Assembly (NCBI GenBank): GCA_028708105.1
Contig: JAQVZR010000021.1
Coordinates: forward strand, 1 to 13,106
DNA from: Desulfoplanes sp.
Lineage (GTDB): Bacteria; Desulfobacterota; Desulfovibrionia; Desulfovibrionales; Desulfomicrobiaceae
DNA length: 13,106 bases
Reading direction: 5' to 3'
Made by a program: the position numbers and the translations under genes. Every line of letters starts with the position of its first letter. Position 1 is the first letter of the stretch. A model generated the notes under the pieces. The model did no database searches and was not told the DNA's origin. It saw only the letters and a list, made by a program, of their open reading frames with translations. Positions 1 to 9,226 of the stretch are shown in pieces.

Positions 1-557
1 ATGACCATAATCTGGATTTCATTATTCAGGGCGAACTAACGAACTTTGCTCAGTTCCTTTGAACTGTAGACAAAATCATCAAACGCGACATTATTATAAA
101 GCCCCTTGAAATGATCACGCATCAACCGGATGGATGTGGTCACGCCTTCACGGATAGCAACCGAAGGAACGACAATGATGAATTTTTTGAACCCGTACAT
201 TTCGTGCAACTCGAGAAGGGTTCGCAGATATACATAGGTTTTGCCTGTACCAGTTTCCATTTCAACGGAAAAATTGGGAAATCCGTATTCATCATCCGGT
301 TCGACAAGACGGGAAGAGACCGGGATGACATTGCGTTCCTGGATGGTATGCAAATTCTTGAGCATCCGGGGTTGAAACATGCTCAAATCAAGAGTGTTCA
401 CCGTCCCTTTCGAATTCAACAAGGGAAGCTGACCTTTAGAACCGGGAAAAACAAGGTCAAAGCTCCCCTGGCGTCTAGGCAATCCCTCAAATAAGTCAGT
501 AACCGCCTTTATGGCTTCAAGCTGGTAGTCCAGTTCGGAATCAAACTGTAACTTCAT
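1..557 (-). pseudogene. res: Type III restriction subunit Res, 5' part, interrupted by an in-frame TAG
   Basis: This is the start of the ATP-dependent restriction (helicase-nuclease) subunit of a type III restriction-modification system, which partners with the Mod protein encoded just upstream. From ATG at 557 the frame gives 173 residues. It shows an N-terminal Q-like segment (DYQLEAI, residues 10-16), a Walker A motif ETGTGKT at 101-107 and a motif Ia-like segment IIVVPS at 127-132. I chose ATG 557 over the upstream TTG at 575 because AAAGGA lies 7 nt before it. Codon 174 is TAG (36-38). Directly after it, in the same frame, comes FALNNEIQIMV, which fits the segment following SSKELSKVR in Res proteins, and the frame then runs off the window. 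The gene is therefore interrupted, not naturally short. A nonsense mutation is the simplest reading; amber read-through or a sequencing error are alternatives. The rest of the gene, including any nuclease domain, is outside the window. Confidence 0.85.
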
Positions 558-625: not shown

Positions 626-2704
626 CTACACCGTCCGGAAAACAATTTGATTGGATTTTTCCCGTCCCTGGTTCCGAGCGGCAAAAGTCTGCACTGCATT
701 GGTTTTGAGTTCGTCATTGCCACGAAAAGCCCGGTCCAGACAGATAAATCGCATGGGCTCAGCCAAGGCAACGGCGTCGATGAGTTCACGGGTCACCTCG
801 TCTTCCAGACAAATAAGAAGCGCTCCTTCGGCAATGGAAAAAATCGTCTTGTCGGCCATGGTCACCTGTGCGACCTTTTCAGTGGGCATAAAACCGGACT
901 TGAGGAGCAATTCATACAAAAGATCTTCCTGAGTCGCCCCGGTCACGATGTGTTCGACATGCATCTGGAGCTGATGTTCGATGTTCTTAACGCCATCCTT
1001 CTCCTTCAATCTCCCGTCCCAGACTTTGAAATTGGACCGATCGAGTTTCAAAACTTTGAATCCGAGATCCTGTTCAGGCAGTTTTTTACGCAAGTGAGGA
1101 AGCATACCTTTCATTTCCTGCATTTTCCCAGATCGTTCTTCCTCAATTCTGGAGATGACTCGTCTGATGCGTTCCTTACCAATGTCTGCAATGGTTTTAT
1201 ACCCGGCCTTGAACGCCTCAGATTTTTCGTCGCATGGTTCAGGTAACTGGACCATGATAAACTTGCGATTGCCACCGTCTTGTTTATTCAGGTCAAGGAC
1301 GGCATGGGCTGTTGTGGAGGAACCGGAGAAGAAATCGAGGATGATATCGCCATCCTTGCTCAAATATGAAACAAGCCTCCGCAGATCCCACCACGGCTTG
1401 GGATTATCAAATATTTTGGCACCCATGAGAACGTTAAAATCTTGAGTGACCTTTTGCGCATAACTATAAAAAACCGAGGGCATCACCTGTTCACTGCTTT
1501 CAAAAAGATAGGTAATTATGCGAGGGATTGTTGTTTCGTCTTCACCAAAAACAATCCGTCCATTATCATATTCTTCCCAAAATCTTTCTTTTGTGGGATA
1601 AATCCAACCGCGCGACGGTTTTTTGCAAACCAATCCGGTTCTCGGATGCGTTATATCATATCCTGGCCCTCCCCCTCCCGGCCAACTTATATTTCCGTCA
1701 TCACGATACGGTCCTCGAGGGCCAACCTTTGAAAATCGGCTTAGTTTTTTTCGGGGATCAGAATTCGGCAATTTATTGTAAAATAAACGCCATTCTTTTT
1801 GGATTGAATCGAAGTCATTATTATATTTGTTCGTAAGTCTTTGAATAAACAGTTTTGCTTCCTCTATGCCTTCCTTGGGTTCGCGAAGTATCTTTTTGTT
1901 ATCTAGAAGATGCTGCTTATTTTTTGAATAAACAAGCATGTATTCATGACCAACGGAAAAATATTTTGCGTCATTTTTGCGATTTTTATCCCAAACCAAC
2001 GTGGCAAGAAAATTTTCTTCGCCAAACACATCGTCGACCAATGTTTTTAGGTTTTTGAATTCAGCGTCATCGATACTCAAAACGATAAATCCATCTTCCG
2101 TGAGCAAATTCCTCGCAAGATACAACCGTGGGTACATCATATTCAACCAATTGGTATGAAACCGTCCCTCATTAGGGGTATTGGATGAAAATTTTCTCCC
2201 CTCCCCGTCCGTCAATCCGGCATAGGCCAGATAGGTATCCAGGGACTCGGAATATTTATCAGGATAGATGAATTCCTTGCCCGTATTATACGGAGGATCA
2301 ATATAGATCATCTTGATCTTGCCGTAATACGATTTTTGCAGGAGCTTGAGTACCTCGAGGTTATCCCCTTCAATAAAAAGATTTCCCGTGGCATCGAAAT
2401 CAACGGATTCGTCCCGACAGGGTTTGAGCGTTGCCATGGAAGGGTCCTCAATGACCTTCATGCATTCTTTTTTTCCGGGCCAATCCATGCCGTAATGCTC
2501 TCGACGTGCCTCGAAAGTATCAGAAAATATGCCCAGTTCGGCCTTGAGCTTTTCGAAATCAATGCCTTCGCTGATTTCACCATCTTTGTTTCTGGTTTCC
2601 ATAAACACATCGGGAAACATGGCCTTGAGTCGTTTCCGGTTGGTATCGGCGATATCCAGCGAAGCAAGTTCCTGTTTTTCGGGCATTATTGTGTCATCAT
2701 TCAT
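626..2704 (-). CDS. mod: Type III-like site-specific adenine DNA methyltransferase (Mod)
   Basis: It transfers a methyl group from S-adenosylmethionine to adenine in a specific DNA site, and in type III systems also gives the Mod-Res complex its sequence specificity. The 692-aa product has the catalytic motif IV DPPY at 136-139 (in MIYIDPPYNTG) and the AdoMet-binding motif I DFFSGSSTTAH at 457-467. DPPY before motif I is the beta-class order of type III Mod enzymes. A variable region around 240-440 is the expected place for the target-recognition part. The N-terminal WPGK and NLFIEGDNLEVLKLL segments are typical of the family. ATG 2704 is preceded by AAGGA, which overlaps the stop codon of the helicase gene (11-bp gap), so the two are almost certainly co-transcribed and probably coupled. 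The res start follows 68 bp downstream. The frame ends with TAG after FRTV, a normal-looking Mod C-terminus. The gene appears intact. Target site cannot be read from the sequence. Confidence 0.93.
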   Translation of the reverse strand: MNDDTIMPEKQELASLDIADTNRKRLKAMFPDVFMETRNKDGEISEGIDFEKLKAELGIFSDTFEARREHYGMDWPGKKECMKVIEDPSMATLKPCRDESVDFDATGNLFIEGDNLEVLKLLQKSYYGKIKMIYIDPPYNTGKEFIYPDKYSESLDTYLAYAGLTDGEGRKFSSNTPNEGRFHTNWLNMMYPRLYLARNLLTEDGFIVLSIDDAEFKNLKTLVDDVFGEENFLATLVWDKNRKNDAKYFSVGHEYMLVYSKNKQHLLDNKKILREPKEGIEEAKLFIQRLTNKYNNDFDSIQKEWRLFYNKLPNSDPRKKLSRFSKVGPRGPYRDDGNISWPGGGGPGYDITHPRTGLVCKKPSRGWIYPTKERFWEEYDNGRIVFGEDETTIPRIITYLFESSEQVMPSVFYSYAQKVTQDFNVLMGAKIFDNPKPWWDLRRLVSYLSKDGDIILDFFSGSSTTAHAVLDLNKQDGGNRKFIMVQLPEPCDEKSEAFKAGYKTIADIGKERIRRVISRIEEERSGKMQEMKGMLPHLRKKLPEQDLGFKVLKLDRSNFKVWDGRLKEKDGVKNIEHQLQMHVEHIVTGATQEDLLYELLLKSGFMPTEKVAQVTMADKTIFSIAEGALLICLEDEVTRELIDAVALAEPMRFICLDRAFRGNDELKTNAVQTFAARNQGREKSNQIVFRTV

Positions 2705-2715
2705 CTATGAATTCC

Positions 2716-5565
2716 TTATTCAAGTCTCCAGCCAATCGTAAAAAGCGGAGTTTCATGATCTTTTTGCTCCATACGGGCCTCGACCTCATCCAGCAAGGCA
2801 TCTTTGTCTTTTTCCACATTACGGGCCGCCTTGTCGTACTCTTTCCAGGCATTGTCCCGTTTGGCATTCAGGGTTCGCAACTTCTTTTGGATCGCCAGCT
2901 TTTGCGGCAGATTGGGTGCCGACCGGGCCTGTTTTTTCAACACAGTGAGGGCATCGTCATATTTCTTGAGCACGGCTTTCAAGGTCTTGCGCTTATCCTC
3001 GGCCCACCGATCCAGCTTATCCATTTCTTCTTCAAAAAAAACAGCGTTGCGTTCTGCAATAGTTGCGAGAATCTTATTTTTTTGCTCTTCCAAAACGTTT
3101 CGGACATTGTTCGGATCGACAGCATGTGCCTTTTCAACTCTTGCAGGCAGATCAAACAACCGTCTGGCCTGTTTCGCATCCAATATCTGCCCTTCATCGG
3201 TTACGGCCGCCAACAGGACATAATCTTCCGATTCCAGAGTGTCCACGGTCATGCCATGGACACACAGAGTTCCGGATTGCCCGACCAATTCTTCCAGTAT
3301 ACTGATATGTCTCGGTGTTCCTGAATAGTCGAAAACAAGCATTACCGGAGGCAATTCCTTTTTCGCCGCAGTGTTCAGCACCCACTGAGCCAAAGGGTGC
3401 TGTAAGCGATAATGATGCCCCCGCTCGACCCCGGGTTTGAGCGTGTACCTGCCCGGCTCCACATTGGGGATGGATGTATCATGGAGGTCGAATGTCAGAC
3501 TACGCTCGTCAAAATCTGCCTTGGAATGAAGCACGTGCTTTGATGTGTCCCAGAGCAGCGCCCCGTATTTGTTCAGGGAAGCCGTGGTCTCTATCTTATA
3601 TACATTGAGTTTTTCGGCCACGTCCGCATCAAAATGTTCCAGCAGCTTTTGCCTGGTGGAACGCATGGTCTGACCAATCTCAGTTTCCATTTCTTTTTGC
3701 AGGGCGTCAAACGAGTTTTTGATTTCCTCGGAGGTTCGGCAGGTCTGATAAATTTCCGCAATACGTTTTTCAAAATTAACCCCGGACTCGATGTTCCCCA
3801 GCACCTCGTCACTTGCCCCGAACACCCCGTCAAAGAGTTTGAATTTTTCAGACAGCAGCTGAAACACACGCAAATCCGCTGCATTATCTCTGTTCAGAAA
3901 ATTGATCACCACCACATCATGTTTCTGCCCATACCGATGACAGCGACCGATCCGCTGCTCTATCCGCTGGGGATTCCAAGGCAGATCATAGTTCACCACC
4001 AAAGAACAGAACTGAAGGTTGATGCCTTCGGCAGCGGCCTCAGTGGCAATCATAATCCGTGCACGATCCCTGAACTCTTCCACCAATGCAGCCCTGGTAT
4101 CGGAACTGCGTGATCCTGTGATCGCATCGCTTCCCTGATGCCGGGCCTTCCATGCCGAGAATATGGTCCTAGCTCCCTGATCCGTATTGGTCCCGTTGAA
4201 CAGGACAATATCACCGACATATCCGTTGGTTCTCAAGAGATCGGCCAGGTATTCCTGAGTCCGGCGCGATTCCGTAAAAATAACCGCCTTTTCCGCTCCG
4301 CCCAGTTCGGATGTGGTCCGAAAACCAACTTCCAATGCCTTGAGCAAGGCATTTCCTTTGGCATTTTCCGTAATGGTCACGGCCAGATCATGAAGCCCCT
4401 GAAGATCCTGGACTTCCTGTTCCAATTTTTTCCGTTCTTTGGGCGTCAGAGACTCAACCGGTTCTTCTTCGTTCATCCCCAATTCATCGGCCAATTCCCC
4501 GTAGGCCTCATAATCTTCCTGAACCGTAGCAAGAGATTGCATCCGTTCATCTTCCAGAATCCGTCCCTTCAGCTTGTGCGCCATGGTGGCCAAAGCCCCT
4601 GCAATGGCAAAAGTGGAAGAAGCCAGAAGCTTGCGCAAAACCAGAATCATCAACGTCCGCTGGCCAGAAGGCAGGGCCATGAGATCCGGTCGTTGAAGAT
4701 ATTCAGAAATCATATCATACAGAACAACTTCATCTTCGGTAGGCGTAAAATCCTGGGTATAGGCCTTGCGTTCGGTGTAACGGATGTACTCAAGGACCTG
4801 ACGTCGCAGGGTGCGTCTGCATACAGGGGCAAGACGAATTTTGAGTTCATCGAACCCGATATCAGAGGTAATACGGGCAAATTGGGTACGAAAACTTTTC
4901 AGGTCTCCAAAGGCGTGGTCATCGATAAAGGAGACCAGGCCATAGAGTTCGAGCAGGGAGTTTTGCAGCGGGGTTGCGGTGAGTAGGACCTTGGGCACAT
5001 GGGCCAAGGCAGATTTGAGTTCCCGGGCTATTTTGTTCCCGGGTTTGTACACGTTTCTAAGACGGTGGGCCTCATCAATAACAACCAGGTCCCAATTGAG
5101 AGCACGGAGGCAATCCGATTTATTGCGTGCAAAAAAATAGGAACAAAGCACAATATCCGGACAGTCGAAAGGATTACGCTCGCCGGACTTGATAGCGGCG
5201 TTGAAAGCCCGCGCATCCATGATACGCGAAGGCAGATAGAATTTTTCCAGCAGTTCCTGATGCCACTGTTTACGTAGGCTGGCAGGAAGGATAATCAGAA
5301 TCCTACGTTTTTTCTCGGCCCATTTCTGAGACAAGAGAATTCCGGCCTCAATGGTCTTCCCAAGCCCCACTTCATCGGCCAGAATGACCCCTTTTGAAAG
5401 CGGGGACCGGAAGGCGAACAGGGCGGCATCCACCTGATGCGGATTAAGATCCACCCGAGAATCCATGAGGGCTGCGGTAAATTTTTCAATACTGTCTGAC
5501 GGCAGACGCCGTAAAAGCTCATGGGCATAGAGTTTGGCGTGGAAGTCGGTGAGCATTGCAAACAT
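2716..5565 (-). CDS. SNF2-family helicase/ATPase linked to type III restriction genes
   Basis: A 949-aa superfamily 2 ATPase expected to move along or remodel DNA. Visible motifs are Walker A DEVGLGKT (64-71), DEAH (164-167), motif III TATP (196-199), motif IV-like region VIFTESRRT (428-436), motif V-like IATEAAAEGINLQ (506-518) and motif VI QRIGRCHRYGQ (537-547). This is the RapA/SNF2-like pattern. A long charged C-terminal part (about 800-940) is rich in Lys/Glu and looks coiled-coil. No nuclease motif is evident. The mod gene starts 11 bp after the TAA stop, so this is the first gene of a helicase-mod-res operon. That suggests a role in restriction or in an extended type III-like defence system. 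ATG 5565 is used; a GAGGT lies about 15 nt upstream, a loose spacing, and an internal ATG three codons later is a possible alternative. Helicases of this type also occur in DISARM and BREX-like systems, but no other DISARM or BREX gene is seen here. Confidence 0.88.
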   Translation of the reverse strand: MFAMLTDFHAKLYAHELLRRLPSDSIEKFTAALMDSRVDLNPHQVDAALFAFRSPLSKGVILADEVGLGKTIEAGILLSQKWAEKKRRILIILPASLRKQWHQELLEKFYLPSRIMDARAFNAAIKSGERNPFDCPDIVLCSYFFARNKSDCLRALNWDLVVIDEAHRLRNVYKPGNKIARELKSALAHVPKVLLTATPLQNSLLELYGLVSFIDDHAFGDLKSFRTQFARITSDIGFDELKIRLAPVCRRTLRRQVLEYIRYTERKAYTQDFTPTEDEVVLYDMISEYLQRPDLMALPSGQRTLMILVLRKLLASSTFAIAGALATMAHKLKGRILEDERMQSLATVQEDYEAYGELADELGMNEEEPVESLTPKERKKLEQEVQDLQGLHDLAVTITENAKGNALLKALEVGFRTTSELGGAEKAVIFTESRRTQEYLADLLRTNGYVGDIVLFNGTNTDQGARTIFSAWKARHQGSDAITGSRSSDTRAALVEEFRDRARIMIATEAAAEGINLQFCSLVVNYDLPWNPQRIEQRIGRCHRYGQKHDVVVINFLNRDNAADLRVFQLLSEKFKLFDGVFGASDEVLGNIESGVNFEKRIAEIYQTCRTSEEIKNSFDALQKEMETEIGQTMRSTRQKLLEHFDADVAEKLNVYKIETTASLNKYGALLWDTSKHVLHSKADFDERSLTFDLHDTSIPNVEPGRYTLKPGVERGHHYRLQHPLAQWVLNTAAKKELPPVMLVFDYSGTPRHISILEELVGQSGTLCVHGMTVDTLESEDYVLLAAVTDEGQILDAKQARRLFDLPARVEKAHAVDPNNVRNVLEEQKNKILATIAERNAVFFEEEMDKLDRWAEDKRKTLKAVLKKYDDALTVLKKQARSAPNLPQKLAIQKKLRTLNAKRDNAWKEYDKAARNVEKDKDALLDEVEARMEQKDHETPLFTIGWRLE

Positions 5566-5623
5566 GGCGTTCGGAGTTGGACCTCGTTAAAATTGAACAT
5601 ATCGGGATAAAACATAGCACGTC

Positions 5624-5638
5624 ATGGGCTATGCCCAT
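5624..5638. promoter_or_regulatory. Inverted repeat upstream of helicase-mod-res operon, possible operator
   Basis: ATGGGC-TAT-GCCCAT, two perfect 6-bp arms around 3 bases, lies 59 bp upstream of the helicase start codon. Its position fits a regulator-binding site or an mRNA hairpin in the operon leader. This is inference; no regulator gene is adjacent. Confidence 0.35.
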
Positions 5639-5791
5639 TCGAACCAATTAACATCGTTGAGTTTATGCTTCCCAAAAACCTGTTTTCCACGTTAAAATGA
5701 ACACCGCCGGCGTCAAATAACAGCAACAAAACCCTGCATAGATGTCATCCCCTCAAGCATGACAGATGCGTTAGGGCCTCCAGGGGGAGTG

Positions 5792-5812
5792 CCATTCGGG
5801 GCTGACCCCTCT
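5792..5812 (+). repeat. REP-like element, copy A
   Basis: CCATTCGGGGCTGACCCC is the first of three related copies (see 7809-7830 and 9686-9703). The GGGG/CCCC arms can pair around CTGA. Similar GGGTC-GACCC palindromes are known in many genomes as REP sequences spread by IS200-like (RAYT) transposases. No such transposase is in the window. Confidence 0.55.
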
Positions 5813-5976
5813 AAGCAGGATTTCCTGCAGGGAAGAATCAAAGCAGCCTCTCGTAGATGCCTGAATGGATGTGCGGATTCGTGGTGTTCATTAAGAATTT
5901 TTCCCTTCAAAATCGATACTTCTTCTGGTCCGGTTCCAAAGAAAGTGACTGGCCCACGCCACGAAAACCATCCGAA

Positions 5977-8009: not shown

Positions 8010-8744
8010 CTATTTGGAGATCATCTCCTGCCAGAATCGATAGAACGCTTCCAATTCGGTTATCCTCGCATCCCTGTCCGGAATTTTTTCCAGGGTCAGG
8101 GCAAGCAAGGTTCTCCATCCAGCATCCGGGGGTTCGCTGGCAAGGGCGTTCATTTTGAAAACGACATCGAACGCACCTAATTTGCTGAATTCCGGCCAAA
8201 AGCTGGCGAACTGTGTTTCTTCCTCTTCGCATATCCTCTGACATCCGTAGACTTCCAGGAGAAATTCCTCCCGGCTCAGCAGGGGTTCTTCGGGGAAGTC
8301 ATTTTCCACAACCATCTCATGATACTCTTCATAGCTAAAGATGGCATTTTCCACTTTTCTGACCACGGAAAAATCAGCCGTCTTTCCGAAATCTTCCGGA
8401 AACTCATACATCGGATAGCGCATCATCTCCTGCTCATACAACCCCCCAGTATCTCCGATACGCAAACCGTTCAGAACCTTATATCCTTCCGGATCGTCCC
8501 GGAGCTTCTGCTGTTCGGGGGTCAGTTCGGGAATATTTGCGGGAAGATACTCGGCCAGCCAGGAAAAATACTCTTCATCCGGGATATCATACCATGGTCT
8601 GCCGTCACTGGTTTCGGGGAAAGCATTCATGCGGTAATCTTTCTGGAGAACAAATCCAAAAAGTGTCATCCATTCCGGCCACGGGATTTCATATTTTCCG
8701 GCAATCAGCCCCATAGGGACTCTTCCGGCAAATCCGTTTTTCAT
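8010..8744 (-). CDS. Hypothetical acidic protein, 244 aa
   Basis: I do not recognise this protein. ATG 8744 is preferred over the TTG at 8765 because GGAGG stands close before it. The product is soluble-looking, without signal peptide or membrane span, and strongly acidic (for example EEEET, DIPDEEYF, ELTPEQQ). It is rich in Trp, Tyr and Phe. No catalytic motif is evident. The frame ends with TAG; 20 more sense codons follow before the next stop but look like ordinary downstream sequence. It lies on the same strand as the GmrSD-type gene, 218 bp upstream of it, so co-transcription is possible. Its 5' end abuts a fragment of a permease gene (8755-8859) in a different frame, so the gene may have arrived by recombination. 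Composition resembles an immunity or phage-inhibitor type small protein only in being acidic, which is no basis for a function. Confidence 0.7.
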   Translation of the reverse strand: MKNGFAGRVPMGLIAGKYEIPWPEWMTLFGFVLQKDYRMNAFPETSDGRPWYDIPDEEYFSWLAEYLPANIPELTPEQQKLRDDPEGYKVLNGLRIGDTGGLYEQEMMRYPMYEFPEDFGKTADFSVVRKVENAIFSYEEYHEMVVENDFPEEPLLSREEFLLEVYGCQRICEEEETQFASFWPEFSKLGAFDVVFKMNALASEPPDAGWRTLLALTLEKIPDRDARITELEAFYRFWQEMISK

Positions 8745-8754
8745 ATTCCCTCCA

Positions 8755-8859
8755 TAAACCTGCAAGATAAAGAAGAAGTATTCTTACAGTTCCACCACCA
8801 ATACCAAACATACCACTCATAAAACCGGTAAAAAGACCAACACTTATATAAATTATACT
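8755..8859 (-). pseudogene. N-terminal fragment of a TauE/SafE-type membrane permease
   Basis: Reading the minus strand from 8859 gives about 35 residues ending in SGMFGIGGGTVRI, followed by LLLYLAGL. This matches the first-helix signature of TauE/SafE sulfite/sulfonate exporters as I know it (LSGxxGIGGGxVRIPxL). The frame is closed upstream by TAA at 8860-8862. Downstream it enters the start region of the 244-aa gene in another frame and ends within about 20 codons. Only one of the usual seven or eight helices is present, so this is a dead fragment. It sits directly between the 244-aa gene and the MITE-like element, which begins 6 bp upstream. Confidence 0.65.
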
Positions 8860-8865
8860 TTATAT

Positions 8866-9064
8866 TAAACCAAACCCAGTTTCAGACCCATAGTTTTCGA
8901 ACAGGTTATCACTGTTCAATTCTTTTTTCACCGCGAAGGGCACGAAGGGACGCGAAGGGTGAAGAATCTGGGATAGATTGGGCTTTGTTTTGTTGCTTTT
9001 CTTCGCGTTTCTTAGCGTTCTTCGCGGTGAAAAAAACTCAATCCCTCAAACGTGGTTTGGTTTA
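8866..9064. mobile_element. MITE-like palindromic element, 199 bp
   Basis: The ends are perfect 11-bp inverted repeats, TAAACCAAACC at 8866-8876 and GGTTTGGTTTA at 9054-9064. Inside, two 35-base arms (8923-8957 and 9001-9035) are inverted copies matching at 29 of 35 positions. They carry the CACCGCGAAG...ACGCGAAG motif seen in scattered repeats of many bacterial genomes. No coding capacity for a transposase is present, so it would be non-autonomous. No clear target-site duplication was seen. Its left part recurs at 10918-11004. It lies exactly between a permease fragment and the stop codon of a KilA-N-like fragment. Confidence 0.65.
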
Positions 9065-9226
9065 TCATAACTTTTTAGCTTTCAATAATCTTATACCATT
9101 TATATTTTGTATTTTCATTTGTTGAATGGCAGTGTCATTCAAAATTATGAGGCGTTCTGCCTGAGATAGAACTTTATGGAAGAAATGAGCATTCAACGCT
9201 TCAAGGTTGGCCAAGTAGACAAATTG
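9065..9226 (-). pseudogene. C-terminal fragment resembling a KilA-N-domain protein (fragment 2)
   Basis: The minus strand from 9226 reads QFVYLANLEALNA, then LSQAERLIILNDTAIQQMK, and ends with TGA at 9065-9067, 53 residues in all. This resembles the conserved C-terminal region of KilA-N-domain (phage-type DNA-binding) proteins. No start codon is available: the frame is closed by TGA about 12 bases before the match. The N-terminal DNA-binding part is missing. The stop codon touches the right end of the MITE-like element. The identification rests on remembered family consensus. Confidence 0.6.

Follow-up and report, generated by a model that had tools for sequence, protein, structure and literature searches.

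An in-frame TAG at the tip of a metagenomic contig, in a type III restriction gene, looks like an assembly-end effect

Introduction

Does a TAG codon within the gene for a type III restriction subunit (res) mark a broken gene, a recoded one, or neither? The question arises at one end of a 13,106-nucleotide stretch from Desulfoplanes sp. (the window), which is the entire contig C59 of a metagenome-assembled genome (MAG) of 2,261,901 bases in 392 contigs, 77.57% complete. The initial annotation took the restriction subunit to be interrupted, and offered a recent nonsense mutation that leaves an orphan methyltransferase, read-through of TAG (including pyrrolysine insertion), or a base error. The answer reached here, with a probability of about 0.95, is that the TAG is a single-base variant at the contig tip, either a sequencing or assembly error or a minority-strain allele, and that res is intact. 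The stop thus resembles what contig ends ordinarily produce, and does not look like the sign of a broken or recoded gene.

The TAG Codon in the res Frame

The features at this end of the window are as follows.

1..35, minus strand: in-frame continuation of res, FALNNEIQIMV, as on contig C240 past the variant; it stops at the contig end
36..38, minus strand: TAG in the res frame; CAG (Gln) on the overlapping contig C240, by contig comparison
39..557, minus strand: N-terminal 173 codons of res, with ATG at 557; the other 806 codons lie on C240
1..164, minus strand: overlap with the start of C240, 163/164 bases identical, the sole difference being window base 38

Plus-strand bases 36-38 are CTA, which gives TAG on the minus strand. 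When that strand was read directly, the arrangement first described was confirmed: an open frame of 179 residues ends in SSKELSKVR before the TAG, and 11 codons past it, FALNNEIQIMV, run to base 1, the end of contig C59, where C240 of the same MAG overlaps. That these residues are what a Res protein should have here also held up, since the same 11 are found on C240 and six close relatives differ from them by only 1-2 substitutions; the sequence past the TAG is true homology and not chance. The likely start of res is the ATG at 557, with 173 codons before the site.

The 179-residue N-terminus matches Pfam ResIII (PF04851, 2.7e-9), PRK15483/NF012027 (8.9e-27, model positions 1-136 of 986) and PADLOC REase_III (PDLC03647, 1.9e-51, model positions 1-165 of 989). 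A Walker A motif, TGTGKT, is present in this part of the protein.

The Remainder of res on a Second Contig

A search of the MAG with the res N-terminus found two places only, the query's own locus on C59 and bases 1-126 of C240, where protein identity was 100% across query residues 138-179. A DNA search with window bases 1-300 again led to C240, at 1-164 on the minus strand. In an ungapped comparison of the ends, C240:1-164 and window bases 164-1 (reversed) were identical at 163 of 164 positions. The one difference is window base 38, equivalent to C240 base 127, and it turns TAG on C59 into CAG (Gln, codon 127-129) on C240. The observation named beforehand as speaking against a true stop was that 36-38 should hold a sense codon, for example CAG, and C240, as assembly consensus and not as raw reads, supplies it.

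The frame on C240 is open for 806 codons, the CAG included, up to a TGA at 2545-2547. Whether the frame stays open for about 700-800 more codons on leftward extension had been proposed as a check. Together 173 and 806 codons give a Res of about 979 residues. The NF012027 model is covered at positions 1-136 on C59 and 152-960 on C240, and the PADLOC REase_III model at 1-165 on C59 and 124-965 on C240, of 989; a third NF012027 match in the MAG, on C198, is weak (20.9 bits). The endonuclease domain (RE_endonuc, PF19778, 1.6e-35) lies at C240 residues 740-840, and the C240 part of the protein has a match to 4zcf_C, the restriction subunit of EcoP15I (2.7e-48). On sequence grounds C59 and C240 each hold a part of one gene, and the parts complement each other. 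An N-terminal ResIII/helicase region with Walker A motif, a C-terminal endonuclease and an adjacent type III Mod were all found; the uninterrupted frame is seen on C240, across the site to TGA, and not on the C59 tip alone. Read over C59 and C240 together res is complete, and so the claim that the restriction subunit is interrupted is not supported.

How unusual is such an overlap of contig ends? Of the 784 ends in the MAG, 21 were compared with a criterion of no more than 3 mismatches over 60-399 bases, and only two end-to-end pairs emerged, C59/C240 (164 bases, 1 mismatch) and C388/C311 (127 bases, exact). The end regions of C54 and C55 have 116 bases in common at 97.4% around a tRNA-Lys, not end to end. 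The right ends of the window and of C240 have no match to any other contig of the MAG. In the second pair the overlap joins the end of C388 to the start of C311, and because it is exact over 127 bases these are probably neighbouring contigs as well. A fixed overlap of 127 bases points to de Bruijn assembly at k = 127.

The Residue at the Site in Relatives

The site was aligned in 11 loci together with C240 and the window piece. In all six close relatives (N-terminus identity 61-65%, taken from 150 pattern-matching stretches in a scan of genome contigs) the residue is Gln. Five distant relatives from a kinship search (37-48% identity) have Gln in one case, Asn in one and Ser in three. The alignment that had been proposed to find which residue the TAG replaces therefore gives Gln in 6/6 close and 1/5 distant relatives. 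A weak kin match (locus L013 in genome G009; 25.7 bits, 93-codon frame) and plasmid relatives (300 records with a match, two examined) stand outside this alignment, and among viral contigs 2 pattern-matching stretches gave 0 confirmed Res relatives. CAG to TAG is one transition. To judge from the close relatives, the CAG of C240 is likely the ancestral reading.

Searches for Amber Decoding

Pyrrolysine decoding of UAG, as in Bilophila wadsworthia, resembles the present case in that an in-frame TAG has homology past it. In the MAG, by contrast, neither pylS nor pylB reached its cut-off, and a tRNA for CUA was not found. In this 77.6% complete genome the best PylS match reached 24.2 bits against a cut-off of 178.15, and the best PylB match 51.1 bits against 348.2. 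Both models match in 13 of 14 control genomes and pass the cut-off in 1 only; the weak matches are probably explained by related enzymes. PylS was above cut-off in 3 of 61 genomes, all of one genus (g14) in another family of the same order; the 22 genomes searched from the family of the window, of which the MAG is one, all stayed below it. None of the 44 tRNAs found in the MAG by the Rfam tRNA model has the anticodon CUA (anticodons from ARAGORN); the Rfam model may miss tRNA-Pyl. The URO-D family (PF01208) had no match in the MAG and is not taken as evidence. The suggested search for pyl genes and their tRNA, made for pylS, pylB and a CUA tRNA, gave no match above cut-off and no such tRNA.

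TAG as an ordinary stop, which had been pointed out as an argument against recoding, was borne out in the genes checked: of seven other window genes tested, mod, the 244/251-aa frame and the response regulator end in TAG and the remaining four in TAA or TGA. PMC3941956 describes pyrrolysine as all but confined to methylamine methyltransferases.

How the Stop May Have Arisen

The observations would be accounted for if a C to T variant, lying within the last 38 bases of C59, split the path of the assembly graph at res. The T branch would continue on C59 for 37 bases beyond the variant and then die out, and the C branch would begin, as C240, at the first 127-mer with the C allele and bear the remainder of res. 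The MAG would then encode a single, ordinary type III Res of full length (about 979 aa), with Mod immediately upstream of it. C59 and C240 would be neighbours, and the T allele an error or a minor variant. The first 127-mer of C240 ends exactly on the variant base and C388/C311 overlap by exactly 127 bases, so the variant probably caused the break. Some points count against the contig-tip variant: up to the variant base the two contigs agree exactly over 126 bases, one short of the 127 in C388/C311, and the value k = 127 comes from that one other pair; the TAG sits on C59, the longer contig; and Gln at the site is not invariant (1/5 distant relatives).

PMC5607848 deals with contigs that break at strain variants or errors when metagenomes are assembled from short reads, and the end-to-end overlap with a one-base difference near the tip is like such breaks. 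Here, in distinction, the variant happens to make a stop codon, and for that reason the site looked like a gene lesion. Of the options first listed, the base error fares best, in that a single-base variant at the tip is supported; the data support either such an error or a minority-strain allele. That the T allele is real and segregating, in a sub-strain with a nonsense res that is methylation-plus and restriction-minus beside intact relatives, is a tentative suggestion that we hold to be somewhat doubtful, a matter of judgement and not of computation.

A fixed nonsense mutation, recent and inactivating res so that mod is left as an orphan methyltransferase, has the TAG of the C59 consensus in its favour, but C240 of the same MAG has CAG followed by an open frame to its TGA, and we consider this account very unlikely; as a fixed pseudogene with an orphan Mod it was rejected because C240 carries the gene on in an open frame. 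Still less probable is that C59 and C240 represent two near-identical res copies, one with the TAG and one intact. A difference of a single base in 164 is what such copies might show, and a second copy could be missing from the data because the MAG is incomplete. Each piece is nevertheless found once, the N-terminus query and NF012027 return complementary N- and C-terminal parts, and the contigs overlap at their very ends, oriented as adjacent contigs would be; a paralogous copy was judged unlikely.

Read-through of UAG by pyrrolysine or a suppressor tRNA, to give a full-length Res, appears the most improbable of all, a matter of a fraction of a percent. The frame does carry on with homology, and PylS does occur in a genus of the same order. 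Against this stand the low PylS and PylB scores, the 44 tRNAs lacking CUA, the ordinary use of TAG as a stop in the window and the sense codon on C240. As the MAG is incomplete, absence of PylS, PylB and a CUA tRNA is not proof by itself; the missing signals together with the CAG of C240 leave no need for recoding. The PylS, PylB and tRNA searches led to the rejection of pyrrolysine and amber suppression as candidates. With the contig-tip variant as the preferred reading, the type III system is complete over two contigs, and there is no need to invoke read-through or an orphan methyltransferase.

Apparent stops in the final bases of MAG contigs call for caution, since they can be graph-branch variants, and a look in the same bin for an overlapping contig end can settle such cases quickly. 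If this one is a true minority variant, it would show on a small scale how restriction is lost within a population, which is nothing unexpected; a real, segregating T allele would be ordinary population variation.

Mod, the DrmD-like Helicase and Gene Order

Two further genes precede res on the same strand.

626..2704, minus strand: mod, type III N6/N4 DNA methyltransferase, 692 aa (Pfam N6_N4_Mtase 9.4e-35; PADLOC MTase_III 2.6e-199)
2716..5565, minus strand: SNF2-family DrmD-like helicase, 949 aa, next upstream of mod (PADLOC DrmD 3.6e-213)

As in EcoP15I-type systems, Mod is directly upstream of Res, and the MAG's Res combines an N-terminal ResIII/DEAD helicase match with a C-terminal RE_endonuc domain. 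Unlike those systems, a DrmD-like SNF2 helicase gene stands before mod on the same strand, and res is split over two assembly contigs. The helicase scores 716.1 bits against NCBIfam DISARM_DrmD_b, under the 950-bit cut-off, and DrmD is assigned to DISARM by the names of the matching models. Among the PADLOC matches listed for ten proteins of the window and C240, a DrmA model matched the helicase only (3.5e-43), and no DrmB or DrmC occurred among the best 25.

The order helicase-Mod-Res (window 626-5565 plus res, with C240 1-2547, locus L014) recurs elsewhere. SNF2-Mod-Res was found in both plasmid loci examined (of 300 records with a match); in one of them a DUF262 gene separates Mod from Res. 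Three of six genome contig loci (L028, L029 and L030) show a DrmD-like match upstream of Mod; in L025 and L026 the DNA begins at or inside mod, and in L027 about 2.9 kb upstream of mod show no such match. Near mod, all five kin loci lack a full DrmD match: the upstream helicase matches in L018 and L019 are weak (~1e-10), L016 and L017 have no helicase match upstream of mod, and the contig of L015 starts about 500 bases upstream of the mod frame. The DrmD-like helicase may serve this type III branch as an accessory component. A literature search returned no paper combining DISARM, SNF2, type III restriction-modification and helicase.

Other Neighbours and an Interspersed Repeat

The window and C240 form a defence-rich stretch with Phd/ParE-type toxin-antitoxin genes, a DUF262/GmrSD_N protein, the DrmD-like SNF2 helicase, Mod and Res. 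After Res on C240 come IetA (AAA ATPase) and then IetS (subtilase), the frame of the latter overrunning the end of the contig.

C240 (L014) 2683-5879: IetA-like AAA ATPase and IetS-like subtilase, directly downstream of res (PADLOC 4.2e-95 and 8e-239)
8010-8765, minus strand: open frame of 251 aa (244 from an inner ATG), between the DUF262 gene and the repeat
8866-9064: interspersed repeat of about 200 bp (query 8840-9090)

Nothing in Pfam, NCBIfam or PADLOC matches the 251-aa frame at E 0.001. The repeat next to it has at least 41 matches of at least 122 bases in the 2.26-Mb MAG, the window copy counted, and this number is a lower bound from 40 of 67 candidates scored. Identity is 94-100% in 39 of these matches and 87% and 93% in the other two. 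The repeat has no Rfam match. Ten aligned copies have sharp ends, TA-AACCAAACC...GGTTTGGTT-TA, with unrelated flanks, and a long hairpin is the fold of the window copy (DNA z-score -6.1). The repeat resembles a MITE with a TA target duplication like that of IS630/Tc1-mariner elements. At least four copies reach a contig end (C276, C279, C335 and C352).
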